Shown here: positions 7,791 through 27,978 of the stretch, one piece after another
Numbering within the stretch: the stretch's first letter is position 1
How the letters are laid out: the number at the start of each line of letters is the position of its first letter
DNA from: Cymbomonas tetramitiformis
Lineage: Eukaryota; Chlorophyta; Pyramimonadophyceae; Pyramimonadales; Pyramimonadaceae
DNA: 64,000 bases
Assembly (NCBI GenBank): GCA_001247695.2
Contig: LGRX02027214.1
Location: 124,001-188,000, forward strand
Direction of reading: 5' to 3'
Made by a program: the position numbers and the translations under genes
The notes under the pieces: model-generated
What the model saw: only the letters and a program-made list of their open reading frames with translations
Told to the model about the DNA's origin: nothing
The model's database searches: none

Positions 7791-9540
7791 CTAGCCACGT
7801 TGAGAGTGCCCGGGAGAGCCGGTGCCTCTGTTACAGCGCCCAGGAGAGCTGGTACCACTGTTTGGCAAATCATGCGTAGAGCAAAATGAGAAAGTTGAGA
7901 AAGTGCCGATGTTTCTGTAGTCAGTTGCACCGGGTGCAACCAGTCGGGTCCTGCGCTCGATTGCTGAAGAAGACGCATCCTCGTCCAACTCGCCCCAGGC
8001 GGGTGGCGCATAGATCGGCGACGGTGGAGCACCACCCGGCGAAGGCGGCACGGTAACGATCGGAGCGGCTTCGGGCGGTTGCGAGGGACCCGGGTACCAC
8101 GTCCAAAGGGTGCCGAGATAACCTCCATGGTCGTTGGGGTACCACCCCTCCGGCCGCCAATAGAGCGCCGGCGGGACGGCCGTGGGCTTCAGCACACCAG
8201 CACCACCGACCTCGTCGCCGGTGTGCTCCGGTGTTGCTGATGATGCTTGCGCGGAGTGACCTTGGGAAGGCATGGCAGTTGCACAAACAACGAAAAGCAA
8301 GCAGACTGCGAGAGATGTGAGGGCGGAGAACCCAAAACCCATTGGCGGTCTGCCGCACCCCAACCAAGGCTTGCCGCGGTGTCGGAAGACCCTCGTCGTC
8401 TTCTCCGGAGTCGTCTGCTGCCACGGAAACCGAATCCACGGACGCAACGGCCCCCATGCTGTGCATCGCGAGGGTCGGCTCCGGTCCCGTTAGGTCCAAG
8501 CTGACCGCGAATTTTTCCGTGAAGGACACGTGCGGCTCGTGTGCGTGCAACGCGCTGACGGGGTATAACCCCTCGTCGGACACCACCGACTGCGGAGCGG
8601 AGGGCGGTGCTGGCGGCGGTGGTACGCCACCTTCCCCGAAGGCTTCCCACGGAAGGTCTGCGGGAAGTTGCCGTGCTCGGGAAGAGGCTTCGCTGCGAAG
8701 CGGATTCCGTCACCATGTCCACCTCGTCCGATGGCGTTCTTCTTGTCGTTGCGGGTCGTGAAGCCCTTCGTGTCGTCGATACGGTTGTGAAGGGCTTTGA
8801 TCTTTTTCTTCATATCGAAGAGCTGGTCGCGGAGCTCGTTGAAGACGGTCTTGTTTTCGCCGTCGCTCTGCTCAGTCAGGGTGAGGGCGGAGTACGTGCG
8901 CGCAGCAGGCGGGACGTGCGAATCCGTCCCGTTTTGTGCGTAGCACTCACGGGTCCATTGCTGAATGGTGGCAAGGGACTCCGCCGCACGTTGGTCGTGC
9001 AGCAAAAGCCGGTTGACAACCGGGGCATAGAAGACCGGGTCGAGTGACTTGATGAACATGGACTTGACCTCCGTGTCGTCGAGGGTGCTCTTCCGTCGAG
9101 CAGACCGAAGAGCGGCGTTGAAGGCGGCGATAGTCCGCGACGGGTCGAACTGGTTGATCTTGATGGCCAGAAGGTCTGCGGTGCCCTGAAAGGGTCCGCC
9201 GGAATCCAGAAGCATCCTGGCGATCTCCAGCAACACCCGTTTCCCATCAAACGGGTGTGCCTCCGCCGAAGACTCCATCCAGTCTGCCGCGGGCGACACC
9301 GGAGCGATAATGTACTCAAGTGTTGAGAACAACAGCTTGTTCGCCTCAGCGCGGACGGTCAGGGTGGCATTCTCCAGGTCGAACAGGGAAGAAAACGCGT
9401 CCTCCTCAGTGACGAAAATGTCCCGTAGCGCCAGGACCAGACGGGCGAAGACGGAGCCGACGTTCGACTCCGTACCGTTAAAACGCCCATGTTTGTCGTC
9501 GTACACCTTCTTGATGACGAGCTTGCTTGCTGGAGAGTTG
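7791..9540 (-). pseudogene. Gag-like polyprotein of a retrotransposon, frameshifted
   Basis: The minus frame entering at about 9540 runs through ADWMESSAEAHPFDGKRVLL, LLAIKINQFDPSRTIAAFN and FIKSLDPVFYAPVVNRLLL. This helical layout resembles capsid (Gag) proteins of LTR retrotransposons. A glutamine/lysine-rich segment follows (DQLFDMKKKIKALHNRIDD). Near 8610 the natural-looking path jumps to another frame (VSDEGLYPVSALHAHEPHVS), and near 8430 again to a frame with a hydrophobic stretch (SLAVCLLFVVCATAM) and proline-rich text. No CCHC knuckle, protease or RT was found attached. The frame at its 5' end overlaps, in antisense, the DUF4216-like fragment that starts near 9541, so the retroelement seems to have inserted into that older element. 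Confidence 0.55.
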
Positions 9541-9810
9541 TACACCTTACTCAAGTGCGATTGGCTTGCAAAGCCGACCGAGAAACAGATCAAGGCCTAC
9601 CGTCTACGAAACTCCATTCTCGGCCCGGATGATTTGACTAGGACGGTCTACACCTTCAACCCGCACGTTGACCCAGCAGCCTTTGAGCACAAGGAGCCAT
9701 TCATATTACCCAATCGAGTAGAACAACAAGTTGTTATTGTGCCACATCCGTGCATGGAGACCGCCGTTATTCTCGACCCAACGGCCGACTTCTTTGAGTG
9801 CATAGGATGA
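9541..9810 (+). pseudogene. DUF4216-like fragment of a CACTA-type transposon protein
   Basis: From 9541 the plus frame reads LLKCDWLAKPTEKQ, then FEHKEPFILPNRVEQQVVIV and HPCMETAVILDPTADFFE before a stop at about 9808. The same layout is found at 18598-18949, where identical words (HPCMETAV-LDP-ADFFE) occur. The pattern K-C-x-W, then EPFIL-x(6)-QQV, then a terminal V-(I/V)-L strand fits the DUF4216 domain that accompanies plant CACTA transposases; this match is from memory. The N-terminal part is missing, replaced by antisense Gag sequence, so this is a truncated remnant. Confidence 0.5.
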
Positions 9811-9828
9811 CATTAGAATGTTAAATGT

Positions 9829-10947
9829 GTGATAATGACATGCTAACACTGACGTGCTATCGGCGTCCTAAGAACATGCTAGCGACATACTAACGTCCCT
9901 ACCTTTCCGAGGAATTCCGCTCGCTTACCACCTGACCCGAATCGCATCATACTCCGTGGCATATCCTTCCCCTGCCCTTCTAATCACCATATAACATGTT
10001 CCTGGTGATCTACGCACCCCCACATGCCTCACCACTCACTACCCCTCAAGTTGGCGCGAACACATGCTTAAGGCGCAGTGGCGTTAGCATGCCTTTAGCA
10101 TGTCTGATGTGTGATAATGACATGCTAACACTGACGTGCTATCGGCGTCCTAAGAACATGCTAGCGACATACTAACGTCCCTACCTTTCCGAGGAATTCC
10201 GCTCGCTTACCACCTGACCCGAATCGCATCATACTCCGTGGCATATCCTTCCCCTGCCCTTCTAATCACCATATAACATGTTCCTGGTGATCTACGCACC
10301 CCCACATGCCTCACCACTCACTACCCCTCAAGTTGGCGCGAACGCATGCTTAAGGCGCAGTGGCGTTAGCATGCCTTTAGCATGTGTGGTGTGTGATAAT
10401 GACATGCTAACACTGACGTGCTATCGGCGTCCTAAGAACATGCTAGCGACATACTAACGTCCCTACCTTTCCGAGGAATTCCGCTCGCTTACCACCTGAC
10501 CCGAATCGCATCATACTCCGTGGCATATCCTTCCCCTGCCCTTCTAATCACCATATAACATGTTCCTGGTGATCTACGCACCCCCACATGCCTCACCACT
10601 CACTACCCCTCAAGTTGGCGCGAACACATGCTTAAGGCGCAGTGGCGTTAGCATGCCTTTAGCATGTCTGGTGTGTGATAATGACATGCTAACACTGACG
10701 TGCTATCGGCGTCCTAAGAACATGCTAGCGACATACTAACGTCCCTACCTTTCCGAGGAACTCCGCTCGCTTACCACCTGACCCGAATCGCATCATACTC
10801 CGTGGCATATCCTTCCCCTGCCCTTCTAATCACCATATAACATGTTCCTGGTGATCTACGCACCCCCACTGCCTCACCACTCACTACCCCTCAAGTTGGC
10901 GCGAACACATGCTTAAGGCGCAGTGGCGTTAGCATGCCTTTAGCATG
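9829..10947. repeat. 282-bp tandem satellite, four copies
   Basis: The word GTGATAATGACATGCTAACA starts at 9829, 10111, 10393 and 10675, exactly 282 bp apart each time. Copies differ by only a few bases (for example one base lost near 10869). Each copy contains the words CATGCTAA and TTAGCATG in opposite orientations near its ends. No ORF of note spans the array. Confidence 0.95.
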
Positions 10948-11090
10948 GAATTGCTAACACACCTATGGGGCTTTAGCATGCCGTTAGCACGCATGCTAAC
11001 ACCTATCTGGCGTTAGCATGTCATAGCATGTCCATGGCACGCGTTTAGCATGTCGTTAGCAGCATACTAACGTTTTCCAGGACCGTAGGG
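10948..11090. repeat. TTAGCATG/CATGCTAA-rich tail of the satellite
   Basis: After the fourth satellite copy, TTAGCATG-like words and their reverse complements recur about ten times in 140 bp (for example GCTTTAGCATGCCGTTAGCA). They look like the degenerate edge or the ancestral short unit of the 282-bp array. Confidence 0.6.
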
Positions 11091-11985
11091 TTGGCGGCCC
11101 GCTCGTCGAAGGACTCCTTCGCTAGACGTCTGACCTAGTCGAGGAACATCGCTCCCGCTGATTGGACGGCCGGTGCAGTCGCAACCGTAGGAGTGGCTGG
11201 TGTGGTTGCATGTCTGGCTGCGACATCGTCGAAAATGATAACTAGTGAGCGGCGTGCGGCTGCAGTGTGCGATCTCGTAGAAGTACCCATGACGAAATGA
11301 CTACTGTACCACCTGCCTGCTTCTATAAATATTTAGGTCACATTCTATCGTTCTGACAGCATTCGAAATACGCGCTGTAATTAACCCGATTATAAAAACA
11401 ACTCGAGCCCTTCGTGTTTTCTGATTGGCCTACGCGTTCACGCGACCTTGCGAGTCATGTCGCTTCGACGTACATAAAACTGAATGCTGCCTCACTTCAC
11501 GACACTCGTCGGTTTATAAGTGTTTTACTCCCCTCCAGTCCCTCACAAGCGTCCTGATCAACGATCCCAGTGACTTGCTTGCGGTTTCGACGGTCTCGTG
11601 CGTCGTCCTCGTGACCTCTTGAATGAGCCCCGGGGCATTCCGAAGCCGGCTCGATGACCCTGCCAGTCATTTTCTGCCAGTCGGATATAAATCAAGCGAA
11701 GGTAAGGAAACATAACCAAAAGTACGCATTAATAACCAAAGGTAACCAGAAGTAAGGGAAAACCTATTCCTAGTGCATGACGAAGTCCCTCGACACCACG
11801 ATTAACTCGGCATCGTGACTAGGCAAGATCTGACGTTCCTATCCTCCTCGCTTGAATTTTGCCAACTTTTACCAGGCGGCATCCATCGTCCATTTGAGAC
11901 AGTTCGAGTCGATCGGAGCTTCGCTATGGCCATTTCAAAATTTGCCAACTTTTACCATGGCCCACTTTTACGAGCGGGTCAGATT
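11091..11985. other. Spacer without a supported gene
   Basis: Short frames only. Words such as AACCAAAGGTAACCAGAAGTA near 11730 are locally repetitive. No splice-consistent coding exon seen. Confidence 0.3.
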
Positions 11986-13275
11986 AGTGTGGTGCACAGA
12001 GTGCCCCTGGATCCACCCAGACCTGAACGTACAGAAGGATAGAAGCCATGTAGAGAGTGTCACAGATACTGGTGATACGGACCAAAGTTGCCTTCCCACG
12101 CGGAGTTTCCCCGAGCGAATCAGCTAGACCAGCTAGGCCAGTACACAGAGTGTCCCTGGATTCACAAGCAGCTTGATTGCTCGCAGATACGTCCAAAGTG
12201 CCAGAACCATACTACCAACGCAGAACGAGGATAAGAAGGAGTTCCCGGGGCAGTTCCTAAGGCCTGAAGGGAATTTGAAGTGAATGCCCAAGTTCTCCGA
12301 AGTCAAACGAGGCTCAGATAACCAACAACAGTGAGCAAGTTCAAGCCAGTGTGCTGGGCACCCCTGGGTAGACCGGACACCTCACACAGCATGACTGAAA
12401 TAACACCACGGCCATGCCGAGTATGCTGAATCAGCAGTGAATGAAGAAGGTCTGCACAACAGAGCTAAGCTGAGCCAGTGCACAGAGTGCCCCTGGATTC
12501 ACAAAGCTGTTGCTCATCCAGAAAAATAGCAGGTGTCATAAGTGCTCGCTGTTAATTAAGATAACCAAGAAGAGAAGTTACACAGCAGAGCTTAAGCTAA
12601 GCCAGTTCACGGAGTACTGTACCCCTGGATTCGCAAAGCCGCTGCTCATCAAGGAGGATAACAAGTACGTACTGGTATACCATTAGCGTTTCTCCGTAAA
12701 TAATATCCAAGGGAAGAAGCTATACAGCAGAGCTTAAGCCAAGCCAGTGTACGGAGTACCCCTGGATTCGCAAAGCCACTGCTCATCAAGAAAGGTAAAC
12801 GGTGTCATAGGTGCCTCACCGTAAGTCCAAAGTCAACAAAAGTCGCCGAAGACACGAAGAAAGGCTGTATGCTAATTCGCCGATAAATCCAAGATAACCA
12901 ACGGTAATCAAGCTAAGCCAGTGTACAGAGTACCCCTGGATTCACTAGACACCGTTGCCAGAGTGGTCTCCACTGTGTTCATAATATACAGAGTTAATCC
13001 GCTCGCTCTATTCCACGCTGATGCCGCTGCTAATTGCCTTCTAGTGGCACACCCGCTTAAAAATAGGCCAGTACACCAAGGGTGTCCCTGGATTCACCGT
13101 CAAACAAGGTGGCCAAGCTAGAGAGCCCGCAGGATAAGAAGCCGCTCATTAAGCTGGGCATTAGCTGCTGATCCGCTGTCGCCGTTGCTACGAGTCTGCC
13201 CGTGTGTAACCACCGCACAATAATAAAGGGAAAATGATCCGCCAGTACACCAAGGGTGTCCTTGGAGTCACCTAT
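11986..13275. repeat. Irregular array of eight boxes (CCAGTGTACAGAGTACCCC type)
   Basis: A 25-30 bp box, best copy CCAGTGTACAGAGTACCCC followed by TGGATTCAC, recurs near 11993, 12135, 12476, 12603, 12745, 12915, 13067 and 13238. Spacing is mostly 127-171 bp with one larger gap. It is often preceded by AGCTAAGC or AGCCAAGC. Sequence between boxes is poorly conserved. It reads as an eroded tandem array with monomers near 150 bp, or as a set of related regulatory or transposon ends. Confidence 0.75.
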
Positions 13276-13619
13276 CTCCCGAATCTGCTCTTCTTGACTG
13301 CTGCCAACTTGTCGCCAAAGAAGTTCTCACTTCTGAATTCGTACCGAAATAAAAGTCGCTCCGCGCAGGACATTATTGTTTTGAAAAAGAATGAAAACAG
13401 CAGTATATAATATTCACCAAAAGATAGTAAAACCACCAAAAGTACGAATTATTGTACAAAACTGTGAGCAGAGCTGTCTTAGCAATCTAGCACTAGGCAC
13501 GCGAACAACCACCTAGCACTTGCGAAGGCAAAACAATAATGAGTCCACTAGTCCTGACCTGCGGTCAGAGCCTACTTATTCTCAAGTCACTGTCCCCTAC
13601 AAATTTTGGAAACCCCAGT

Positions 13620-14475
13620 GCATATGTACCCGGCATGTACCGGGGACGTGTACCCAACGTGTACCCAGCGTGTACCCAACGTGTACCCAACGTGTACCCA
13701 GCGTGTACCCAACGTGTACGAAAACAGTAAAAAACGGGGTCTGGTACATGTTGGGTACACGTGTACTCTACCTTGTACCTACGTGTACTTGCTCGCGGCG
13801 CGGCATATGTACCCGGCATGTACCCGCGACAGGGTACATGCTGGGTGCATGCGTCTGTGTATGTACCTTTTGCCGCCTGCGCATGTACCCGGCGTGTACG
13901 CATGTACGGGTACATGTGTACCGCATATGTACTCAGGTTACCGTTGGATGTTACCGTTGGATGTTACCGTTGGGTCACCCGGGGTACATGGTAGGTACAT
14001 ATGTACTTAGGCCAGGTACATATGTACTTATTGATATAAACATGCCTGGTGCGCACGTACCCAACATGTACCCACGCATCAGGTACATGCCGGGTATGCG
14101 TGTACGCAGGTCAGGTACATATGTACGTAAGCCAGGTGCATATGTACTTATTGATATTAACATGACTGGTGCATATGCACCCCGCATGTACATTTGAGTG
14201 AGGTACATGCCGGGTACGCATGTACGCAAACCAGGTACATATGTACTTATTGATACTAACATGACTGGTGCATACGTACCCCATATGCACGTGTATATCG
14301 GTGCATTATTAGTACACATGTACCAAGCGTGTACGAGCCTCCCATACATATGTACCCAACATGTACGTGCGTATGCATTAGTACGCTATAGGTGCATGTG
14401 TACTCGAAAAGGGTACACATGCACGCAATGGTGGGTACAACTCTGGTGCGCGTGTACGAGGCCTATCTATATGCA
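13620..14475. repeat. GTAC-dyad island 1
   Basis: The core GTAC occurs dozens of times, mostly in GGTACATATGTAC-, GTACACGTGTAC- and CATGTACCC-type dyads. An exact 11-bp tandem (CGTGTACCCAA or CGTGTACCCAG) runs from about 13647 to 13720. A larger unit with ATGTACTTATTGATA and AACATG recurs near 14021, 14143 and 14242. Long frames on both strands here are products of the repeat (all rich in Tyr-Pro-Thr-Cys). Confidence 0.9.
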
Positions 14476-15087
14476 CAATATCACAAGAGGATTGCGAAAA
14501 TGTGTGCTACTTACATTAAGTGTGTTCACAATGCATATGCTATGCGAAGGCTAGCACATCACGCATACGCATGGAACACTCGAGCATGTTTAATACAATC
14601 ATATTAATACGATAGTGTAGCTAGCTAGGCACGATGGGATACAATTGGGACTACTCATCTCTATCCTACCAATACGCAAAATAACGTTCTATTCGTACGA
14701 TTTCTAGTTCCAACACTACGATTGTAAACAATCTATCAACCTAGCACGCTCGAAGGGAAGCTTGAAGCTCATGAAGTACTCGAGGCGGTCGATTTTCTCC
14801 ATTTAGGGTTTCTCCAAAACAGCCGATCTGAAAAGTAAAGCAAAGAACCAACACTTAGTAAAAAGCGGAAAACGCATCAAAGATTCCCTTGTGCAAAACA
14901 TAACTAGCAACCTAGGAACCTCAAAGAAGCGCGAATGTAAACGCGAGATGATGGTGGAAAAATTGATTTCACCACTCGAATATTTTCAGCGATCTGAAAA
15001 ACAAAAACAACCAAGTAACGTTTAGTAAAGATGAAAGATAATATAAGTGAAAAACGAAATTAACGAGGGAAACTGAAAAGGAGAGGT

Positions 15088-15155
15088 GGAGTGAGTTGGA
15101 TTTGAACCAACTATTTCGAGTGCAAAGGACTCGCGGGAATCTTCCCGTTCACTCC
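15088..15155 (-). tRNA. tRNA-like sequence, anticodon position TTT, atypical
   Basis: Read on the minus strand, GGAGTGA pairs with TCACTCC (7-bp acceptor stem). CGAGT pairs with ACTCG around the loop CCTTTGC. GTTGG pairs with CCAAC around TTCAAAT, a canonical T loop. A 5-nt variable region AAATA lies between. Against a working tRNA: the D arm is reduced to GGGAAGATTCCC, total length is only 68 nt, and position 33 is C, not the nearly invariant T. The anticodon would read TTT (Lys). I take it as a tRNA pseudogene, an organelle-derived fragment or a tRNA-related SINE head. Confidence 0.35.
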
Positions 15156-15229
15156 AAGTCAAAGTTCCGCGCATGCCAAGGATGAGCGCGCTAAGCACAC
15201 ACAAAATAATACATATACATATAAAAAAC

Positions 15230-15875
15230 ATGCACTACAAACCTGTGACATATTGCAGCGAGCAAGAATGAGAAATATCATAACATGCAACCCGCTGGCG
15301 AGGCCACCACACGCTGCTGCACACTGCTGGACGGTGAAATGTGAAGCGTTGACGGCTGTACCGGTGAGTTTGAACTTTTACAGTATTCTGCAAAAATGCC
15401 TACAGTGGACACCTTGACTTCCCGTTGCGCGTTGGGGGGCGTGAGAAGTCACAGCACGTCCTCGTCACGCGAGCACGATCGACGATAACGATGACGATGA
15501 CGAATTCTGCGAAACGTGTGCCATGCCATGCGATGCCATCGGACGATTGGAGATGGAATAATCCACCGCATGACGCTCGCGCTCGCGGGTTGGGGATCGC
15601 AGGCACGCAGGTCACGTACGTATCGATCGCGATCGTCATCGATTATTCCACCCCACCGCTCTACTCGGGCGGTCATCCTAATTGAGGTACGATTTTCTCT
15701 CTCTGTTCCTTTTTTTTTTTTGTGCAACACGTTTGCCCATTTTTCGTGCAACTAAAATGTTTTTCGGGCTCGTCGTGCACTCGATTATTTTTTGCGCTCG
15801 TCGTGCGCTTTAAAATGAGGCCAACTTGTTTTTGGGGGGTTTGGTGACTTTTTTTGCGTTTTGGTGATTTTCGCT
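15230..15875. other. Spacer, nothing recognised
   Basis: No supported exon. Contains a T-run near 15708-15721 and alternating CGAT-type words (15478-15500, 15615-15645), which make open frames on both strands without coding character. Confidence 0.3.
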
Positions 15876-15879
15876 CGGG

Positions 15880-16425
15880 TACACGTGCGCCTGGGTTGTA
15901 CCTGAAGCTGTCGGGAAAAGTGTAAATTGTACTCGCATGCACTTGCATATACCAAGCCTGAGTACATATGTTATTTCTGCACCCCAGTTTGGCTTCATTC
16001 TTGTACTTGCTCGCGGCGGATTTTAGTGACGGGATGGTTCATGTATACCCTAATTGTACCCAGCATCCGCCGCGAGCAAGTACACAAAAGTACAAGAATG
16101 AAGCCAAACTGGGGTGCAGAAATAACATATGTACCCAGAAATTACGTTTGGGTACATGCAAGAACATTATTTGGGTACTGATAAGGTCCCAATGTACCAG
16201 AAACGTACGGTGATAGTACATATGCAGTACACATGTTTTCGTCCATGCGTACATGCCGGATACACGTGTACCTTTATCTTGTACCCAACGTGTACTTGCT
16301 CGCGGCGCGGCATGCGTACCCGGCATGTACCGGTCGCCGGGTACATGTCAAGTGCATGTGTCCGTGTATGTACCTTATGCCGCCTAATACATGTTCGGTA
16401 CGTATGTACCCGCAATGTCTTCCCG
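15880..16425. repeat. GTAC-dyad island 2
   Basis: Same character as island 1. About 120 bp from ACTTGCTCGCGGCGCGGCAT (near 16292) is homologous to the segment starting near 13787, showing that islands share longer units and not only the GTAC core. Confidence 0.85.
15963..16134. repeat. Long inverted repeat inside GTAC island 2
   Basis: The left arm, about 58 bp from GTACATATGTTATTTCTGCA (15963), is matched in reverse complement by the right arm ending GCAGAAATAACATATGTAC (16134). The right arm has an extra ACACAAAAGT-type insertion of about 11 nt. The loop between the arms is about 45 bp. It could form a strong cruciform or hairpin. Confidence 0.85.
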
Positions 16426-16589
16426 TATGCAGATCCATGCGACATGGGCAGGAGCGTCGGGGACGCCCTCGGTATCTTCGCCCGGCCCCGGCGCATGCAT
16501 GGCGACAACACGGTCGACAACGACCCGTTCACGACACCGACGATGTCGATGCAAGGTGCGTTCTTCCCTTCATAAAGTAATACGTGCAT

Positions 16590-16885
16590 CCCGGGTACGC
16601 GTGCACCTTACCGTTCTTCAGTTGGTACATGGCCGGTGTGACGTCGGTACATACGTACCGGACACTTACGCATGAAGGTGAAACGAAATATGCCGGAAAT
16701 TCTTGCTTATGGTCACAATGTGCGCCGGAGGCCCTGCCAAAATTTTTATTTTGCGTGGGCGCGTCGTGTGGGAATGCCTTAGTGGGAGAATGTGTCCGCA
16801 TTCACCGTACACGCGCGGTACACATGTACCCACGTCGTACCATTGTGATTATTCCCGGGTGCATGTGTACCGGTAATGTACCGAC
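16590..16885. repeat. GTAC-dyad island 3, sparse
   Basis: Several GGTACATACGTACC- and CACATGTACC-type words. A possible coding stretch just before it (about 16430-16557) reads DPCDMGRSVGDALGIFARPR and ends in a good donor, AAG|GTGCGT, so the islands may sit in introns of a transposon-derived gene; the exon is too isolated to call. Confidence 0.5.
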
Positions 16886-17078
16886 TGACTGTGCTTCGCA
16901 GGAACGTGCGTGGCGAGCGTCGTGTACCTCAACAATCCGACCTAAACCACTGGGTCGTGGCGGGGGACCACGTGCACGTGGCCGCCGCCTTCACGTGGAC
17001 GCGGCTTTATTACGATCAACCATATAGCCGATTATAATCAACCACGAAACTAATGAACATAAACTGAATTCCCATGGC

Positions 17079-17890
17079 ATGTACGAACGACAGAAGAGGA
17101 CGGCAGCAATGAACCGCTGCATATATATACTTAAACAAAAGAATACATGGTACACTGATAGCAATATTAGGATTACATTCCCACTCGGCAAGTTTGCACG
17201 ACATTACCACGATATGCAGGCGAACCCTACCGAAACCCTACAAATTAAAGACACAAATGACTTCACACAGCCCCATATACAGAGAGGGGCAGGAAAAACC
17301 TTTAGGGAATGGCTCAGGAGGGTAGGGAGACACGCTACACAAAGTATGAGGGCGAACTGCCGACACTCGACCACAAGCGAATTCCCAAAAATGCTCTACG
17401 TAAAAGTAAAAAAAATTGGAAAACACACCGAAACACCCCAAATGTTTTGCACAACTAGGGGACGACATACAAAAAATGATGCCCGCCAAGGAAATGATAT
17501 TAGGGGCGTTACATATATGGATTTAGGGCAATGTAACGCTGTAACCATAAACTCGACAACAACGAAAACACTACAGCGACACCCGAGATGGACAAGACAG
17601 GCCCAAAATAAGCACCCCAACCAACCAAATGACGCACTACCACCCAGCCACTTAAAACGGAACTACTATAGTACAAAGGCGAACCCTAAAATAACCCTAA
17701 CAACGAGGGACGCAAATGCACGCGCACGGCACGACATGACGGGAAAGACGTTAGGAAACTTCAGGGAATGGCTCTGGAGAGCAAGGAGAAGGGACACACA
17801 AAATACTGGAGCAAACTACCAACATTCGACCACAAGCGAATTCCTAAAAATGCTCTACGTAAAAATAAAAAAATCGGAAATTGCGGGTGC
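17079..17890 (+). repeat. Diverged direct duplication (about 200 bp, offset 466 bp) in a long open frame
   Basis: Segments 17215-17415 and 17681-17880 are homologous: both begin GCGAACCCTA and share CGACCACAAGCGAATTCC and AATGCTCTACGTAAAA. The plus frame is open for 319 codons across both, so the predicted product carries two copies of a motif (FREWL, then HSTTSEF-KMLYVK). The frame is lysine/threonine-rich with no recognisable domain. I cannot decide between a hypothetical protein and an AT-rich repeat that lacks stops by chance. Confidence 0.5.
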
Positions 17891-18560
17891 ACGTGTACCC
17901 ACCATGTACCATAGGTCAGTACGTGTGCACCCGGTCGCAACCGTTTCCAGTGCTGGCCCGGTACACGTGTATTTAGCCTGCACCCGTAATGCAGTGCACG
18001 CGCGGTACATACGTCCCCGGCATTTCCGTAGTGCTTAGGCGCCATGTGTTGTTTGCAGACGGCGCACCTTCAGGTCAAAGGCACCGAAGACCGCCAAGTA
18101 CAAGGTGCACATCGACCAGGACCCCATCCCATGGTTGGGAAGACAATACACAGATAGAGTATGAACGCGCTCTACTCGAAGGTTGCCCTCCTCGATGCCG
18201 CAAGTTCAATCGAGTGCAAGTGGGTACGATGAAGTTCCGGACCGCATCCATGGACAAAAAGTTCAAGACAGTGCAATGTTACTTCCGATCCTTTTACGTC
18301 GAGAGGGTGAGGACGAAAGGTCGCGAGCAAACAAAGGAACAAACAGACCGGTGAGTACACAATCATGTACCACCAGTACCCGTACACCCTCGGTACATAC
18401 ACACCTAGCATGGGAACGCGTGGGTACATGTGTACCCGTGATGGCGTTATGTTGGGTACGTCCCGGGTACACATGTACCAGTGTACAGTAGTGTGCAGGC
18501 CGAACATGCACGAGCCGAGCGGTGCGAGACTGATTTGATATCGATGTGATGGTACATACG
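17885..18560. repeat. GTAC-dyad island 4, overlapping the DUF4216-like gene
   Basis: GTAC words cluster just upstream of the gene (17885-18020) and again within its intron (18351-18560), for example CATGTGTACCCGTG and GGTACACATGTACC. The exon between them has almost none. Confidence 0.75.
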
Positions 18561-18949
18561 TGCTTGATGTCGGGAGGGGGGGATGCTTATATTCCAGGTT
18601 CGGCCGGGTGGATGCCATCTATCGAGTGGAGCTTGGAGGAAGACCGTACGTGTTTGTCAAGGTTTCGTGGCTCAAGAAGCCAACTAAAGCTTTAACGGCC
18701 GCTTTGCGTGCGAGGCATTCCATCATAGGAGCGGATAGTGTTTCAAACTGCTTCTACGTATTGGACCCAGAGAATCCGGCCACTGAATTCGATCGAAAAG
18801 AACCGTTTATGCTTGCCGAGGAGATTGCTTCTCAAGTGGTGATTCGAAAACATCCTTGCATGGAAACCGCGGTGGTCTTGGATCCGCTAGCCGACTTCTT
18901 TGAGCAGATTGTCCGAGATGAAAATCCCAGTGACAATGAGGCATGGTAG
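18059..18949 (+). CDS. DUF4216-like transposon-derived protein, two or more exons
   Basis: Exon 18059-18350 starts after TTGTTTGCAG. Its best-supported part reads IEYERALLEG, then FRTASMDKKFKTVQCYFRSFYV. It ends at donor CCG|GTGAGT in phase 2. Exon 18598-18949 starts after TATTCCAG, supplies the missing base, and continues FGRVDAIYRVELGGRPYVF, VKVSWLKKPT, FDRKEPFMLAEE and HPCMETAVVLDPLADFFEQI to a stop. The intron (18351-18597) is itself GTAC-rich. The order (linker, yG-x-V/I strand, VSW, EPF-x-L, terminal VVLDP) is that of DUF4216 proteins linked to CACTA transposases. A second plausible frame at 18065-18160 (PKTAKYKVHIDQDPIPWLG) suggests a frameshift in the first exon, so it may be a pseudogene. 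No transposase core was found upstream. Confidence 0.5.
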
Positions 18950-19009
18950 ATAAACATAGGTAAATGTAATTGTATATAATGATCGTTTTTGTTATGGTGA
19001 ATTGTTAAA

Positions 19010-19610
19010 TTGACACATGGTACATTATCGGTACACGTGCACGCCATATATAACACGCGTGGGGTAACTATGTACCCAAGTCGTACTAAGCGGGTGCGTT
19101 CACATGTACCCAGCATGCCCTCGTCTGCCATTTGGTACATGTCTGGTACATGTGTACGAGAAACCATGTACCCAGCACGTACTCAGCATATACTATATGG
19201 TACACGTTAGGTGCATGTGTACGGGGGACCATGTACTCGGCATGTACCTACAGGTACCCGCCTGGTGCATGCTGGGTACATGTGTACGGAGTCGATTGCG
19301 TACACATGCACGCCGCATGCACCTATTTCTTACTTGTGTACCCGTCGACGGGTGCACGTGGGTACACGTAGGTACACGCCAGTCCTGTTTTTCGGGTGTC
19401 CATTTATGAAGGTATAACTCAATAGTTTGCATCGAAACTTGTCAAGGATGTCTTAGTCACTTATGGCCTTGACATATATGTGAAAATATTGCACTTTTTT
19501 ACAACTCGGATTTTCACTGAGTTTTGGGCCCCAAGTGGGGAGTGGGCAGGTACATATGTACGTTGTCCAAGTACATGGGAGGTACATGCTTGGTACATGT
19601 CGGGTACAGG
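19010..19610. repeat. GTAC-dyad island 5, downstream of the DUF4216-like gene
   Basis: Words such as GGTACATGTGTACG and GGGTACACGTAGGTACACG recur through 19010-19390, with a few more at 19550-19610. Together with the islands upstream and in the intron, they bracket the gene. Confidence 0.8.
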
Positions 19611-19756
19611 TGTCCTAAATTTGTAGGGGTCACATCTGTAAAACTGTAACAGACTTCCGCTCTAAGATCTTCATCCACCAATAGAATGCTACTATTCTTT
19701 GCCAGCTTCAATGATGTTACGGTATCCCATCTTCTGGCTGACACGTCAGTGGCAGC

Positions 19757-19949
19757 ATCCTAAACGTCATTTCTTCTAGAAACATTCTTCTTATCTCAAT
19801 GTCATACCACGATGACCAAGTCTTCCTCACCACATCTGCTATCTCCGAGCAATCATCACGCGCGAGGTCTGTCATGCCTGTCAGGTCTGTCACGCCTGTC
19901 ACCAGCTGAACAACCCCGGCTTCGGTACCACGAGAAGCCGGCGTTTGTT
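19757..19949. repeat. Dispersed repeat, copy 2 (partner at 5285-5477)
   Basis: Same orientation and nearly the same sequence as 5285-5477 over about 190 bp. The ends coincide (GCATCCTAAACGTC to GGCGTTTGTTACA), so this is a bounded unit of a dispersed family, not a chance fragment. Confidence 0.8.
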
Positions 19950-20024
19950 ACAACCTTACAATAAAGTGTCTGATACCTCTTTATACTACGTTATATGATT
20001 AGGATTTATATATAGGATGGGGAG

Positions 20025-20041
20025 ATGTGTGTGTGTGTGTC
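20025..20041. repeat. (GT)n microsatellite
   Basis: About eight GT units directly in the sequence, in otherwise unremarkable spacer. Confidence 0.8.
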
Positions 20042-20339
20042 TTTGTCCATTTTCTGGAGGTAGGGAGTAATAGATGCACCTTCGGTGCGTTAAACCGGAT
20101 TAAACCCAACTCGGTCGTTTCAGGTCCAAACCCAATGGGGCCGTCTCAGGTCAAAACCTAAAGAGGATTCGTGTTTAATTCATCCTAGGTCGCACGTCCC
20201 GCCAAAAGCCAATGATACATGCAAATTCCGTTACTTCCTTTTGGGGGAGATGTGCTCGATCGTTCGCAAGCTTGTCAGCCCGACAATTATTTCGTCGGCA
20301 ATGCACTCCCATCCCGGGCAGGGGATAATTGCCTATTAC

Positions 20340-20970
20340 CCGCAGCTTAAGGTGGGTTAAGCCACCTTAACTTAAAGGTCTCATGGGGGCTTCTTCGGCG
20401 GTCGGTGCTTTCAAAATTTGGAGACCTATATCTTCAAGATCTTGAGCTGCTCTTTCTGCAGTGTCTTATCAAAAGTTTGATCCGAGGTCATCTTGACCCT
20501 CAAAATCTCGGTTGAAGTAGGGTGGGTATTTCCCAATTTTCCTTAAGATGGCTTAAGCCACCTTAAGCTAATTAGCTCACCGGGGGCTTCCTCTAAGACG
20601 CTTTCAAAATTTGGAGACCTATGTTGTCAAGATCTCGAGCTGCTCTTTCTGCAGTGTCTTGCCAAAAGTTTGATCCGAGGTCATCTTGACCCTCAAAATC
20701 TCGGTTGAAGTAGCATGGGTATGCAAAAACAGGGAAAATCGCTTAAATTTTACTAAATGTTGCACCCTCTTGGATACTTCCCAGAATTGCTCACCGGGAA
20801 CTACTTGCGCTCGCCTAATAGTGCACATAGTGTGTAAAAGAAGACAATGTCGCCGTCATTTTGAGCTAAAAAATCTAGCTTCCGGTACCGATAGCTCCCG
20901 TAAAAATTGAAAACGTTAAGGTGGCTTAAGCCACCCTAAATCGCTGTTAGGGTGGCTTAAGCCACCCGAA
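20340..20970. repeat. Recurrent palindrome GGTGGCTTAAGCCACC
   Basis: The 16-bp perfect palindrome occurs near 20920 and 20951. Near-perfect forms lie near 20343 (GGTGGGTTAAGCCACC) and 20548 (GATGGCTTAAGCCACC). They alternate with the CTTTCAAAATTTGGAGACC repeat. Confidence 0.75.
20407..20713. repeat. Two copies of a roughly 115-bp repeat (third copy at 22836-22957)
   Basis: CTTTCAAAATTTGGAGACCT to CTCGGTTGAAGTAG occurs at 20407-20520 and 20590-20713, and in more diverged form at 22836-22957. The third copy is interrupted at GAAGTAG by the TIR element 22958-23750. Confidence 0.85.
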
Positions 20971-21054
20971 GGGTAATAGCCAATAATGTGTCAACTACAA
21001 ATGGGTCCCGACCTTCGCGCCCCTACCGGGTTTTGGCCACCCACGTACGCGGCA

Positions 21055-21860
21055 ACATGGAAAGTTTGTCGCCACCCGGGGAAGGGGTGGGGGGTGTTGT
21101 CGCCAGGGGCTTTTATTGTCGCCATTGAGTAAATTTGTCGCCATGACCAAAAAATCTCTATGTAGGGATAATTTGTCGCCATGTAACAAAAAGTCCCTAA
21201 TACGTACTATTTGTCCCTATGAAAAGGGAAATCCGTGGCGACAAAAAGTCGCTAGTAAAGACAGCGTGTCGCCACTAGGTATGCACGCGCATATGCGGGA
21301 ATTCAGTTCCGTGCAAAATTAAAGGGTATCCTCATATTTCTCACGAAGCTAGTAAGTAACGTCAAACAGTTAACTTTATTCACGGAAGATAGTAGGGCAA
21401 GCCGTTAGGTTACTGACGGTAAGCCAGTCATCTAATTATTACTTGCAATTTCAAACAGTCGTAAACGTCCGGTAGACAGTCATCACTAAATTATCACTTA
21501 CTAAATAAAACAACAAACGCGGTAAGACAGCAACAACGAATTATAACTTACAAATTAAAACAGTAAATGACCGGTAGACAGTTTCGTTAAATTATGGGTT
21601 TATTTTGGTATGCGCGTACGGTGGGTAAATGCCGAATATGGTAGCATGCGGACACCCTCTCCCTTTGTCGCCATAATGTGTTTTTGTCACCATGCAGAAT
21701 TTTGGGGCTGGCTGCAGAACTTTCGGCTGGATGCAGAATTTCCCAAGAAAAATATTATCCGAACCCTTAGAAATGCCGTTTCATTTCTTGCCGTGTCATT
21801 TTTTCTCAGGAAATTCCGCATCTGGAACCGTCTCCATTTTGTCGCCATGGAGGAGGAGGG
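21055..21860. repeat. Scattered TTGTCGCCA words
   Basis: TTTGTCGCCA or TTGTCGCCA (or TGGCGACAA) appears about nine times between 21066 and 21850, most in the first 220 bp, with irregular spacing. Sequence between copies is not repeated. Confidence 0.6.
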
Positions 21861-21944
21861 GGGTTCGCCGTGCGAACTTTGGGCGATTTTGGAAATTTGC
21901 CCATAGGTAAATGATGATATTTTCCCCCTACTCAACTGCCATTA

Positions 21945-22105
21945 ACATTATTTGCCTACGCGCAGACTACCATTAATAAATCTTTTGTCTGAGACGCGCA
22001 GACTACCATTAAATATAATTTGCCTACGCGCAGACTACCATTACGGTACATCATTCGCCTATACGCGCATACTGTTACCATATTCGGCATTTGCCTACGC
22101 GCATA
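21945..22105. repeat. CTACGCGCAGACTACCATTA repeats
   Basis: The 20-bp word CTACGCGCAGACTACCATTA, or a close variant, occurs about five times at 30-50 bp spacing, joined by TTTGCC-type AT-rich linkers. Confidence 0.7.
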
Positions 22106-22529
22106 CTAAAACAGCCCCTTAAATAGTTAAATTGTAACTTACAAACTCTAAGAGTAAACCATCTAAGGTGCGTGTGTAGACTCGCAGGAGCAGTCCGGCA
22201 ACCGGCAGTGTGCCTGCACAATTGAACCCAAGCCGACAGACCAGCTGTGCGGACGTCGCCCTCAAAATTAGACCTCGACCGAGCGCAAAGAATGTGTTAA
22301 AACCGCCCAAATCGTAGCTGTCCATAGCAACCATTAGATTAAAACCCCGTAAGTCGCAGAGACTAAAATCAACTGTCTTAAAAAGCACTTATCTCAGCTA
22401 ATAAAAATCTGCGACAAATCACGCCGATACAATCAACCAGCGCGGAGCGTCATGAAGCAAAAAGAAATATGTTAACAAAGTCTCTCATTCGAGAAACATG
22501 GGACCCGGTACAAAACCAAGTCGTTTTTG

Positions 22530-22765
22530 TGCACTATATCGTGGGGTACCAAGATATCGTGGGACTTGACCACGATATTGTGTACCAGTTCGCACGATAT
22601 CATGGAGTTGACCACGATATCGTGTACCAATCCCATTATATCGTGGGATTGGTACACGCTATCGCGTGGAACTGGTCCACGATATTGTGTACCAGGTCCA
22701 CGATATCGTGAGATTGGTACACGCTATCGTGTACCATCACTTCCACGATATCGTAAAACTGCTAC
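22530..22765. repeat. Cluster of CACGATATCGTG-type palindromes
   Basis: About ten copies of ACGATATCGTG-like palindromes (variants ATTATATCGTGG, ACGCTATCGCGT) in 230 bp, often followed by GTACC or GGTAC. Neighbouring copies are arranged head to head, so larger hairpins are possible. Confidence 0.8.
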
Positions 22766-22957
22766 GCTATTGTATATATTAAACTATTTACTAACTCGGC
22801 GTAAAGAGCTGGTCGGGGCCAGCTCGCTCAAAGGTCCTTTGAAAATCTGGAGACCTATCGTTGTCAAGTTCTTCAGTTGATCTATGATCTTTCTCCAATG
22901 TCATGTCAACATTCTGATCCGAAGACATCTTGACCCTCAAAATATCGATTGAAGTAG

Positions 22958-23750
22958 AATCGGTCATCTGAAATCAGTGGAACGCTCAGATGCAACGGTG
23001 CCGTGGGATCGAAAATTCAGGGTTTCGGCGTCAAGGTATCAATTTTCGTGGCCGCAAAAACGAAAAGTTGCGCCCGGAGTCTTTTCAGACCTACTGATAT
23101 GCTTCTAAGGAAGCATACTCGGTTGTTGTTTACTAACAAGAACTGAGCCAATCCCGCAGATCGGGCGAGATTTGACTCGCTCACACCCCTGAACGCTCAA
23201 TCGAGCATCCGCTATTCCCCGACTGCCCTTGAGGTATGTCAGATGAGCGCAATCGATGCGTACGAATCTCAACATCCCAAAGCCGTTCTTATTATTACTT
23301 TGTTAATGCGGCTAGCGAGGCGAACGTTAGGGAGGCGAATCCCTTTGCGAATCCATTTTTGCGTGAAAACGCATATCCCGCAACCGGGTGCGAGTTGGCC
23401 CCTTGCGTGGAATCTGAAAATGAGAAAAATGCGTTAGCGGATCCTCAGATTGTTGGCACCTACTTGGTACCAACAGTCTTAGGAACATGATTATAATTAT
23501 GCATGCTCATGCTTAGTATCATAGTCTTTTGCGCAATATACACGGTCAAACAGGCAGTGGGACTCCTCCCGTAAGTTTTGCAAACAAAAAACGATAAACG
23601 CTAACGCTGCGAAGAAAAACCATAACGGGAAAATATCGAACCACTGGGATTTGCGAGCTGCAATTTTCCGCGTTTCTGAGCCGTTCGCCAAAATCGAGCT
23701 CCGTTGCCTCAAAAGGGGCCGATTCGTTCCACTATTTCAGATGACCGATT
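22958..23750. mobile_element. 793-bp TIR DNA transposon, non-autonomous
   Basis: The left end AATCGGTCATCTGAAATCAG (22958) is matched in inverse orientation by the right end CTATTTCAGATGACCGATT (to 23750); the inverted match runs about 25 bp with one gap. GTAG stands directly on both sides (22954-22957 and 23751-23754), fitting a 4-bp target duplication. The host site is a third copy of the repeat at 20590-20713, whose uninterrupted text GAAGTAGCATGGG shows what the empty site looked like. Inside are only short frames (84 and 71 codons) and no transposase. The superfamily is not assigned. Confidence 0.8.
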
Positions 23751-24223
23751 GTAGCATACACGGGTCACATGCAGTATTAGCTAATACGGCTTAAGTAATA
23801 ACGCACCGAAATTAGGGGTTGAGGAAACGAATATTTCGACAAGATTCAATCATTCCTCGACAATGCTCGATAAGGGGCCGCTCCCTGACGATACAATGGA
23901 AGTGGACCTCCGACATTTACAAGCTTGGCTTTATGTCACTTACCTTATCTTATCTTACTTACTTACTTAGTCAATCAGCAGCAGCAGCAGCAGGAGCAAA
24001 GCTCGAATCCCAACCGGCGACGCAGTTGAGTTCTCGATCTCACGATCGCCAGACGCTAACGATGACAATGCCACTGCATTCGCGTGCATTTACCTGCGAC
24101 GCCACCCATGCGCTATGGCATGGCATGTTGGGACGCAAATTGGAAAGTACTGTCGCACACATGATCCTACGGTCAGATGGCCTAGTGGAGATCTCATATT
24201 GAGATCGATAATGCCTAGTATGC

Positions 24224-24242
24224 TATATATATATATATATAG
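24224..24242. repeat. (AT)n microsatellite
   Basis: An uninterrupted TATATA run of about 18 bp followed by AGTGAAACCC, in spacer without a gene (23751-25020 shows no supported exon). Confidence 0.85.
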
Positions 24243-25022
24243 TGAAACCCTAATTTTGCGAGCTGTTAGAAAAATGATTGAGATATGGTTCGCATTGACA
24301 AGACCCCAACACCACCGTGACATCTTCGCGTGTCCCATCGCCCACCATAGCTGGAAAATGTGCAAGTGTGGGCGCATGCCCTCATTAAACCCCCCCATTT
24401 TCATTCAATGCCCGCCGCAGGCGAATTTAATTAAAATGGAATATTATCTTTTAAGATTTCATCGAATCCCTTAAGGGAATTAAAACATATTCTCTGAGCA
24501 CAGTTTGAGGCCATGAAAAAAAAATACGAGTCCCATTATGATTTTGCATTTACCAATTTCTAAAATGTTACAACAAATCACTTTTCATCATCTTCACCTT
24601 CCATAAATGCGAGCATATACTATCATCTTTAAGCACGCGATAAATCGCTTCGGACACCGTGTGCACTTTGGCGCGGTTATCGCTCGTGGTGAAATGCCAA
24701 CTCGGCCCATATATCAAAGCGACGATGGTTCAAAGCTGCACAGCTAAATAAATCTGACTTATGAGGAGCTGGTACGTTCCAGTGGATTCCACTTTCCTGG
24801 CTGACCGTGAATCTTGACTCAAATGGCGCCCCCGCCAGTCGCGTGCTTGTCAACGATTGAGCCCATACCCGCCCTCAACAACAGCGTCTTGTTGGGGTTT
24901 CAAAGCACAGCGTTGGAAGAGATAAATCCAATCATGCACATCTGAATACAAAAATGGGTCAGTCAACATATTTGCCACTACTGCAGTCCCACTCATATAA
25001 AGCCACCTAGTCGCACAAAGCT

Positions 25023-25280
25023 AGGTATGGCAAACGCGAAGTCAAAAAGTGCTCGGTAAACGCAAAACTCTTTTATTGGCTTATCATATCCGCGGGAACA
25101 TTGTAGATGTATAGGAACTCGTCCGCACAAAAATGGATGCGCAACAAGGAAGTTATGCTCGATACACTTCACAATTCACCCATACGTAACCATACTTAAG
25201 AAAAAGTTTAAATCGCCCATATCTTAAGTTATAGAAACTGCGTTTACCGAGCACTTTCTGACCTCGCGTTTGCCATACCT
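25023..25280. mobile_element. 258-bp MITE-like palindromic element
   Basis: The first 46 bp (AGGTATGGCAAACGCGA, then GTGCTCGGTAAACGCA) are repeated in inverse orientation at the right end (TGCGTTTACCGAGCAC, then TCGCGTTTGCCATACCT) with only three or four mismatches. No ORF. A clear target duplication is not visible. Confidence 0.8.
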
Positions 25281-26730
25281 TGAAATGCGGTTACCAAGCG
25301 TTGCTGGATCAGTTGATGCTGCTCCCGCAAGACTTCAAATACTGCAAACGAAGAAACACCTGTTCGGGCCCATTAAAAAACTCGTCGTAACCAGCTTTCC
25401 TCATCTTACGGTTTGCTAGGCAATAATTGGAAAAGCTGTTGTAAATCAAATGCAAGCTCCGCTCTGAGTCCAAAAAACGTTAGGAAGTGTGCCAAGACCA
25501 TGCGATCACCTCTCTCGTCTCGTCGTCCGACACATCCTGACATGAGAAATTGGCCGAATCCGTCTTTGTCGGGCCCTGCGGACCGAATCCCTTACTTTCG
25601 GTAAAATCTGTCATTTTCGGGCCCTGTGGGCACCGAAAGTCGGCCCTACGGGCCGCATCCGTCATTTTCGGGGCCCTACGCCCCCCCTTAAATGGGGCCC
25701 TTCAGGCCGGTACTCCACTGAACGTGACCCTGTGGGCCGAAATCCCTTGTTTTGTCTTTTGCCGAAATCCCTGATTTCTTGGCGCATACCAAGTATGCGC
25801 CCTCAAGCACTTTTCCCTACTAGGTCGCCCACGAGGTCGAAAATCGTGTCTCGCGATATCGTGTACTACGATCCCACAAGGTTTTAGACAAAAATGATGA
25901 CGAGAGCCACGTCACCCGAGAGACGGTGCGCGTGCGTATGGTTAATGTGTAAAAAAAAGATGCAGGGCTCCACGCACGCTGCGTGCGCGCCCATATGCCT
26001 CTCACGAGCGGAACTAGCAGCCGTTGCAACCTGTAGCAAAAACAAGAGTGAGAGTGGAACATACAACACGTGAATATATATATATGCTCGTGTGGTGCGA
26101 GAAACTAAAGAAGGATACGTAGCTTTCACAAGAAAATGTACACGCAGGTGTGTTGCCGTCAAGAAGACACTTGGAATGGAATGAAAAGCGATCGCCACAC
26201 GTCATGCGAATCTTATAGACTGCTGCTGCGGCTCGTTCGTGTCGAATGGAATCTAACGATTTCGTCGCATCCCGATCAGAACAGATTCTGATAGGCACTT
26301 CGTTCATCTTAAGCGCAGCTCAGAAACTCAGACTGCGGCCGGCACTCGGTACTCCTACGGACTCGGACTGTCATCACTGTCGAACCATCACTGTTAGGAC
26401 GGATACCTTGTAGGCCTGTCGTGGCCAGGGGCCTGCACCGGGACTCGTCCCGATCAGGGCTACTTGCACAGTAGATCTTAGCACATCGCCTCCATACGTG
26501 GGGAGTGATGACTGTTCGACGAGGGAGCGTACACACTATTCATAAGTTAACAACAAACAGTTGCAAGCTAACCCTACTCCGCTACTGTGGTAACAGAGAA
26601 AGTAGGCTCCGACAACCGAAATTCAAAGCATAAAATATTGCAGGAGCAATACCAATATGTGAAATGATTAAAGCAAATTGAAGTAGATAAAACTGACCTC
26701 AGATTTCGTAGATGTTTTAATTAGACCCAC
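25281..26730. other. Spacer with GGGCCCT-rich short repeats
   Basis: Between 25568 and 25740, words like TCGGGCCCTGYGG and CCGAATCC recur five or six times. No coding exon is supported across the rest. Confidence 0.4.
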
Positions 26731-26734
26731 CGCT

Positions 26735-27400
26735 GTGCCGTACGCCAGTCAACAACGAGACCAGTGTAAACCCAGACATGCTAAGGGGTGCTGTGGGTGG
26801 GAATATCCATACCACCATACCAAAAGAATGTCGCACCACATCCGCCCGGTGCCACACCGCCAGCTGGAGGGTCACTCCCCCACAGCAACCGCATGCTGCA
26901 ACACCTACCGTCTCACCTGTTGCCGTCAGTACCTCATGGTTGAGAGCCTATACACTTGAGTACATGTTGTACACGTCGCCCTGATCGGTGGGCGGGATCC
27001 CCCCTCCGAAACCACCGCAGGAACCATCTCGCACACCGCACCTGCTGGCTCGACCAAACACACCCCAAAGGAGATGTCGCCCAATCCGACGTCAAATCCC
27101 TGGTCCACCTGGCCTCCAGGCGCAAATGTGGCGTATACTCCTCCACCTGTCGGAAGGGATGCAAAATGGCCGCCGTCGGGGCAGGGGCCACCGCTTGTGG
27201 GTCGTGGCGCCGAATCCTCCATCCGCGGCACGTGTCTAACCACCTGGGAAGCACATACTGCCGCCTGCAGTGCGTGCATGATCTGCCACCTGCAAAGCAC
27301 TTGCCATCGCATGTTCCGTCCCAGATACCTCCACTACCGGCGAGCCCAAGTTTGGGGCGCGCTACGATAGTTGGACTCGCCCCTTGTTCTATATAACGGC
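26735..27400. other. Proline/glycine-rich open region, strand undecided
   Basis: Both strands are open for 100 or more codons (plus: NPWSTWPPGANVAYTPPPVG; minus: DSAPRPTSGGPCPDGGHFAS). No domain, no start context and no splice-consistent neighbour could be found. It may be an exon of an unseen gene or a Gag-like remnant. Confidence 0.2.
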
Positions 27401-27762
27401 GGCCTGCTTTGCAGTGTTACTGCATCGCAGGACTTTACTTACTGTCAGCGTAAACGTTTTATCATTACTATGATTCTAATAGCCGAACATGCTTGTGTAT
27501 ACGACCTGTGTGTGGGCGACGGAGACTCAAGGTGGCGAGGCAGAACCCTTATCGCCTTAAGTGGCCCATATGATGTCTTTGACGTCACCGACCGCACAAC
27601 TGCGCCTTGGAAGTGTACTGGCTTGCAGATAATCAGAAAATGTCGATTGGGATCAAACTAGGCTACAGACCAGCCACAAACCACTTTTGCCGGTTCACGA
27701 CCGTTTCCAAAATTTGACTGTTCTCTTTCTACCGTTTCCACTAAATATTGAGACATGCACTC

Positions 27763-27825
27763 CCATGGTTTAAAATCTAAATATACGAGAAAGCATGGTT
27801 TAAAATCTAAATATACGAGAAAGCA
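27763..27825. repeat. 30-bp exact tandem duplication
   Basis: The unit starting GCATGGTTTAAAATCTAAAT and ending ACGAGAAA is present twice with no mismatch. It lies 3' of the minus-strand gene that ends at 27979. Confidence 0.85.
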
Positions 27826-27978
27826 CCATCTCGGAATAACACGTTCGCATCACTAGGAAAAGTAAATATTAGTCTATCGTTGCAGTCAAAGATTCCGGCC
27901 ATTTAATGAGGCAGTCACACTATGATGAGACTATGATGAGACAGTACAACTGCGTTGAGAGAAGTAAATAACACACTT

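Follow-up and report, generated by a model that had tools for sequence, protein, structure and literature searches.

We analysed a 64,000-nucleotide stretch of the genome of Cymbomonas tetramitiformis, a phago-mixotrophic prasinophyte (contig LGRX02027214.1, positions 124,001 to 188,000; hereafter the window), in which the tetranucleotide GTAC is gathered in dense islands around the remnant of a transposase gene. The islands belong to a complete, bounded transposable element that occupies positions 13595-19628 (6,034 bp). Its termini are perfect 12-base inverted repeats, CCCTACAAATTT...AAATTTGTAGGG, with 18 of the first 20 bases agreeing between the two ends. Most likely, the GTAC-rich islands are built-in, putative docking sites of an abundant and recently active transposon. 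The features of the element, in order along the window and with a strand where one applies, are as follows:

13592..13594: target-site duplication, left triplet GTC (from the sequence)
13595..13606, plus strand: left terminal inverted repeat CCCTACAAATTT (from the sequence and the boundaries of copies)
13614..14475: left subterminal island 1, 53 GTAC; 0 of 212 core columns with shared variants
13778..13878, plus strand: block common to 16285-16385, 85% identity over 101 nt (repeat analysis)
15861..16420: island 2, 25 GTAC; core diversity 0.0083 versus 0.0354 in the rest
16556..16902: island 3, 10 GTAC; core diversity 0.0148 versus 0.0290
17881..18059: island 4, 5 GTAC; matches the stretch 3' of the DUF4218-like exon in a fuller copy, L073
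18060..18350, plus strand: exon 1, encoding the N-terminal portion of the DUF4216-like region, donor GTGAGT; frame in the window shifted relative to the protein P0002
18351..18597, plus strand: island 5, the intron, 12 GTAC in 247 nt; shuffle mean 0.93, count reached in 0 of 2000 shuffles
18598..18949, plus strand: exon 2, encoding the C-terminal DUF4216-like portion; Cymbomonas proteins match it at up to 95% identity
18950..19420: right subterminal island 6, 21 GTAC (copy alignment)
19537..19628: right end island 7, 6 GTAC; core diversity 0 versus 0.088 in 16 copies
19617..19628, minus strand: right terminal inverted repeat, CCCTACAAATTT on this strand (from the sequence, a terminal-repeat scan and right-end matches)
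19629..19631: target-site duplication, right triplet GTC (from the sequence)

Within the element GTAC occurs 144 times, compared with 40.6 ± 5.7 (maximum 60) in 500 dinucleotide-preserving shuffles; the remainder of the window has 157 against 139 expected under a first-order Markov model. The dyad GTRCRYRYGYAC is found 32 times in the window and every time inside the element, where shuffling yields a mean of 0.14 and at most 3. The commonest context of GTAC is the asymmetric TGTACC, which accounts for 79 of the 144 sites. Distances between GTAC sites peak at 8 bp, the spacing of the dyad, and at 11 bp. A single tandem repeat was ruled out as the source of the second peak, since 29 of the 35 pairs at 11 bp persist after removal of the tandem at 13645-13720. 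Half-sites seem to favour different strands at either end of the element: TGTACC and GGTACA stand at 17:13 in the left island, as opposed to 5:12 on the right. This apparent lean has the direction expected of mirrored ends.

The sites fall into seven clusters, located at both ends, in the interior and in the intron between exons 1 and 2. The initial annotation of this locus had overlooked the bounded element, with its terminal inverted repeats and target-site duplication, as well as the asymmetry of TGTACC. Nonetheless, most of what it had said about the islands proved correct. It had described five clusters of palindromes with a GTAC core; the clustering holds, with an enrichment over shuffled sequence, the number being seven instead of five. 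The islands were also said to surround the gene and to enter its intron while largely avoiding the exons, in agreement with 12 GTAC in the intron, 2 in exon 1 and 1 in exon 2. Repeat analysis recovered the CTTGCTCGCGGCG word and, as the 13778-13878/16285-16385 pair, the shared block of roughly 120 bp, which extends to about 137 nt in BLAST comparisons between copies. Island 1 additionally holds an 11-bp tandem at 13646-13719 and a 120-bp unit starting at 13993, and island 2 combines the second copy of the shared block with a 51-nt inverted repeat (15958-16008/16088-16138). From splice-like borders we infer that the stretches on either side of island 3 may be exons.

Copies of the element and variation at the GTAC cores

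The 851.7-Mb assembly was searched for copies of the element. With the left 900 bp as the query, the best 40 of 944 candidates, which were the ones scored, have 97-100% identity, and with the right end the best 40 of 389 candidates are full-length matches of 96-100% identity. Of 30 excised loci, one of them the window's own, 29 have their left boundary at the equivalent of window position 13595 (in the remaining one, L011, it lies at 13596), and beyond this boundary the flanking DNA is different in all 17 loci compared. Among 20 further copies, taken as stretches of 7.2-8 kb each, both ends are visible in 15 and no right end falls within the stretch in five. All 15 two-ended copies carry matching 3-bp duplications, of 14 different triplets. 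Internal deletion forms of the element also exist (L022, L028 and L041). Near-identical copies are thus numerous in the genome, and we infer that they transposed recently. As to whether such islands occur without a link to the element, a point raised by the initial annotation, the copies compared show them travelling with it: each of the 30 left ends has 54-55 GTAC and each of the 36 right ends 24-28, the window being counted in both sets.

Changes seen in a single copy should mostly have arisen after insertion and those shared by several copies should mostly have passed through transposition, so the copies provide an internal control. We compared the window with 29 other left ends and 35 other right ends; the set consists of those copies that match the window best and includes related ones, which are not independent. 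Over both ends, shared variants are found in 7 of 328 GTAC core columns and in 85 of 1001 other island columns (p = 2.5e-5). The difference holds at the left end (0/212 versus 19/645, p 0.0061) and at the right end (7/116 versus 66/356, p 0.00098). CpG-driven variation was ruled out as its cause, because the avoidance persists once columns able to hold CpG are dropped (p 0.025 on the left, 0.026 on the right). GTAC ranks lowest in the rate of shared variants among the 23 four-letter words with a coverage of 80 or more island columns. An alignment of 16 copies extends the difference between core and remaining columns to island 2 and, in weak form, to island 3. Since the variants common to copies avoid the GTAC cores, the end islands look functional.

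Transposase-gene remnants and the words of related families

The initial annotation had described the gene amid the islands as transposon-derived and DUF4216-like. Its transposon origin stands; Pfam finds no DUF4216 match (exon at E 1, spliced proteins at E 10), and the label therefore rests on position after a DUF4218-like exon and on family resemblance. The Cymbomonas protein P0002 spans exons 1 and 2, and in P0001 exon 2 is fused to an upstream DUF4218-like part. P0001 itself has no Pfam match, and six of its relatives match DUF4218 at E 7e-6 to 0.003, all below the Pfam cut-off. The structure predicted for the DUF4216-like protein has a mean predicted local distance difference test score (pLDDT) of 44. 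Shared codon changes in exon 2 comprise 8 synonymous and 8 non-synonymous ones against a neutral ratio of 28:72, which is suggestive of coding constraint. Rfam, at its gathering thresholds, has no match in the window.

Fuller copies of the element are present elsewhere. A DUF4218-like exon lies upstream of the right end in at least 10 of 40 right-end contigs, the count being a lower bound drawn from the best 150 of 5,358 candidate matches to that exon. The distance from the end of this exon to the start of the right-end match, which corresponds to window 18990, is 1,124-1,126 bp in nine contigs and 1,695 bp in one. In one of the ten contigs, L073, the same exon-intron-exon block carries 19 GTAC (null 4.8, maximum 13). 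Because the DUF4218-like exon accompanies the right end in fuller copies, while the window copy keeps the ends and the last two exons of the transposase gene, we read the window copy as a rearranged, non-autonomous family member that would need the enzyme to be supplied by fuller copies. A comparison of the window with L073 by eye would place the rearrangement break near 17877.

Related loci are surrounded by other words. A profile of exon 2 matches window positions 9190-9807 (E 5e-29) and the loci L032 (1e-33) and L048 (6.5e-33); L042 is non-significant (0.039) and L047 unmatched, both showing the two-exon pattern by eye. The words are CATCCTAACG around L032, CATGCTAA in window 9800-11100, CTATGGAA/CCATAGGG around L047, GAAGAC around L048 and CTTGGA around L042. 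For five loci, words were learned outside introns and exons, and their coverage of the DUF4216 intron was then compared with chance; for L048, where no donor was identified, the 300 bases before the exon were used. Coverage exceeds chance in three of the five, namely the window, L032 and L047 (0/1000 each). In the same five-locus test the learned words show no exon depletion beyond chance; CCCTRYG, a more specific word of L047, has no match in the exons of that locus. Eight open reading frames beside the elements in L042, L047 and L048 gave one chance-level match when compared with Pfam (IBR_1, E 0.2).

The search for Transposase_21 in the genome returned the best 150 matches of 1,984 candidates, and two of these 150 places, L071 and L072, were examined. 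L072 contains both Transposase_21 (E 3.8e-22) and DUF4218 (E 3.7e-9), each above its Pfam cut-off. It has 48 CATAGG words, none of them within the 1,947 bp of recognisable exon; all four inter-exon gaps hold words, and 19 pairs are spaced at 11 bp where 1.1 would be expected. L071, with Transposase_21 at E 4e-21, has 30 GGAAGA/GAAGAC matches, of which none falls in the exon sequence (720 bp), and 3-4 pairs are spaced at 11 bp. The exon limits in L071 and L072 were set from peptides by eye, so avoidance is favoured near the borders.

The second DUF4216-like family in the window consists of the exon at 9190-9807 followed by the CATGCTAA array, in which a 282-bp tandem repeat is present and 4 pairs have 11-bp spacing; on its upstream side it overlaps a minus-strand retroelement-like open reading frame. 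On the reverse complement of L042, at approximately 1150-1383, lies an intron with dyads rich in TCCGG/CCGGA. This is not the commonest word of L042 and is possibly a separate private word.

Interpretation of the islands

The islands are real and strongly non-random, and they are explained in kind as the private site array of a CACTA-like transposon. More specifically, we take them to be putative sites for a DNA-binding protein encoded by the element itself, a member of a CACTA/EnSpm-like (TNP2-type) family, and assign this reading a probability of about 0.7. According to it, the element would encode a word-specific protein that recognises its own private array. At the termini, the bound protein would bring the ends together for transposition, and the variant test suggests that the end sites would be needed for mobility. 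More tentatively, in introns and flanks the protein might coat the element, as TnpA and VANC reportedly do when relieving silencing. A transposase-type subterminal array was among the possibilities named in the initial annotation, and it fits well with the exact ends, the 3-bp duplications, the cores spared by propagated variants and the apparent strand lean.

The element resembles CACTA/En-Spm transposons such as maize Spm/En and soybean Tgm (PMC2613891, PMC8978399) in several respects. It makes 3-bp target-site duplications (GTC/GTC in the window) and has short direct and inverted subterminal repeats at both ends (islands 1, 6 and 7, in both orientations); TNPA recognises the subterminal repeats of Spm as cis-determinants (PMC2613891). 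The domain order TAD, Transposase_21, DUF4218, DUF4216 has been reported (PMC8978399); in the fuller Cymbomonas copies a DUF4218-like exon appears to precede the DUF4216-like part, and TNP2-type genes are present in the genome. Family-specific repeat words within one genome and internal deletion derivatives that keep the ends are further likenesses. In contrast to CACTA/En-Spm, the Cymbomonas element has a CCCTA pentamer, a left island of about 860 bp and a green-algal host, and the arrays extend into the intron of the residual gene and all four inter-exon gaps of L072, with many exact 11-bp steps.

VANDALs differ from the Cymbomonas element in being Mutator-like. As in the VANC/VANDAL system of Arabidopsis (PMC5735166, PMC10398659), the Cymbomonas families have a short private motif in non-coding DNA, both introns and ends, that differs among related families. 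VANC21 localises to introns, intergenic regions and terminal non-coding regions, and the targets of VANC6 have different motifs (PMC5735166). The corresponding features here are the GTAC family, introns in three of the five loci and L072. A further difference from VANC/VANDAL is that core constraint characterises the ends and island 2 and not the intron tested.

It is conceivable, although doubtful, that the arrays act in anti-silencing, through a coating of the VANC or TnpA kind, and not in transposition as such. Words fill the flanks and, in several loci, introns, with few or none in exons, which is the distribution reported for VANC21 (PMC5735166), and TnpA activation of Spm, linked to demethylation, is cited in PMC10398659. 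However, the cores are conserved at the ends and in island 2 and not in the DUF4216 intron. A neutral expansion, in which slippage and local duplication multiplied a chance short word without any binding role, is unlikely. Duplication is indeed evident in the 11-bp tandem, the 120-bp unit and the shared blocks, but shared variants avoid the GTAC cores while other island columns vary, and the word recurs in both orientations, at either terminus as well as internally, with other words taking its place in other families.

The word-rich stretches in introns might also be nested or captured element ends, which would make the islands debris of nested insertions. The recurrence of the 13778-13878 block at 16285-16385 and the inverted repeat spanning 15958-16138 would suit such an origin, which is nevertheless quite improbable: in L072 words occupy every inter-exon gap, many at 11-bp steps, and no exon; with up to 2 mismatches allowed, the terminal repeat recurs just once inside the element, at 17236-17247 (internal target-site duplications were not searched); and such near-matches are at chance level in the window (6 versus 4.3). 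GTAC is also the core of plant and algal SBP sites, for example those of Chlamydomonas CRR1, and the plant consensus is TNCGTACAA. The initial annotation had accordingly envisaged a transposon-borne landing array or decoy for host SBP-domain, CRR1-like transcription factors. Although the 144 GTAC cores are common ground, this idea was rejected as the leading reading and seems very improbable, as neither TNCGTACAA nor CGTACAA occurs in 13595-19628 and the flanks in the islands are mostly T/C, as in the prevailing TGTACC. Moreover, a GTAC-specific host factor would leave unexplained why sister families carry non-GTAC words at equivalent places.

Several observations weigh against an array for an element-encoded protein of CACTA/EnSpm-like type. 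The terminal repeats start with CCCTA, one letter off CACTA, and because of this we use the term CACTA-like and refrain from assigning the element to CACTA/En-Spm. Beside the right end in the GTAC family, the DUF4218-like and DUF4216-like exons alone were seen, and a TNP2 exon was not reached. Variants confined to one copy show the same direction as shared ones (26 in all; 3/328 core versus 23/1001 remaining columns, p 0.17); being few and leaning the same way, they make a mutation cold spot at GTAC a possibility. The cores of the intron island are not conserved (diversity 0.0496 versus 0.0351), and 5 of the 15 aligned copies that keep the intron have 7 sites there instead of 12. One deletion derivative, L022 (1,736 bp, with TTG/TTG duplication), has kept the end islands alone and lost all internal ones. 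Among the related families, the intron test was negative in two of five loci (L042, 130/1000; L048, none), L042 and L048 have at most one pair at 11 bp per word tried, and the learned words are slightly over-represented in the exons of L047 (0.038 versus 0.014, 18/300).

If the element-encoded protein does exist, it is tempting to speculate further that each family has its own protein, which binds a private word set at 11-bp steps through much of the non-coding DNA, introns included, so that a single protein would join the ends and also protect the element against host silencing, new families arising by paired switching of protein and word. We put this forward tentatively, as something that may well not hold. 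If true, TNP2 transposons of an early-branching green alga would have arrived at a VANC-like solution. The 11-bp steps correspond to one helical turn and predict cooperative binding on one face of the helix. Spm and VANDAL are the main known settings for an open question, namely how a protein keeps pace with its target word as the two evolve. In Cymbomonas, a single genome offers many near-identical copies together with sister families that have different words at the same intron position, and thus a direct comparison; the origin and diversification of site arrays become approachable through related elements with different words in matching introns. The comparison of shared and private variants, in turn, offers a sequence-only route to mapping the array positions that a transposon needs.

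The host, the extent of the array, its placement in introns and the 11-bp packing look new. Among the titles and abstract openings screened in the open-licence literature, none concerned these Cymbomonas arrays or arrays within the introns of CACTA elements. The Cymbomonas genome paper attributes 5.2% of the assembly to DNA transposons (PMC10675990), and a term search of its main text, as far as available, gave no match to CACTA/EnSpm.

Other repeats within and beside the element

A GTAC-poor internal segment of the element is present in two copies of approximately 82% identity, at 17296-17422 and 17756-17880. The element also contains a tRNA-Lys-like gene (ARAGORN) at 15085-15155 on the minus strand, identical in 15 of 16 aligned copies and differing by one substitution in the remaining one. 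Because the loop base preceding its anticodon is C, the gene could be a relic derived from a tRNA, or else a passenger.

To the right of the element, repeats of CCACGATATCGTGG-like words occupy 22501-22900, with a 21-bp tandem at 22638-22731, and ATATCGTG occurs 12 times in 19629-30000. These repeats are perhaps the array of another family; GTAC rises slightly in 22501-23000 (8 sites). Directly to the left, window 12000-13300 contains repeated CCTGGATTC words, part of which lie in direct repeats of 57 nt and 43 nt.

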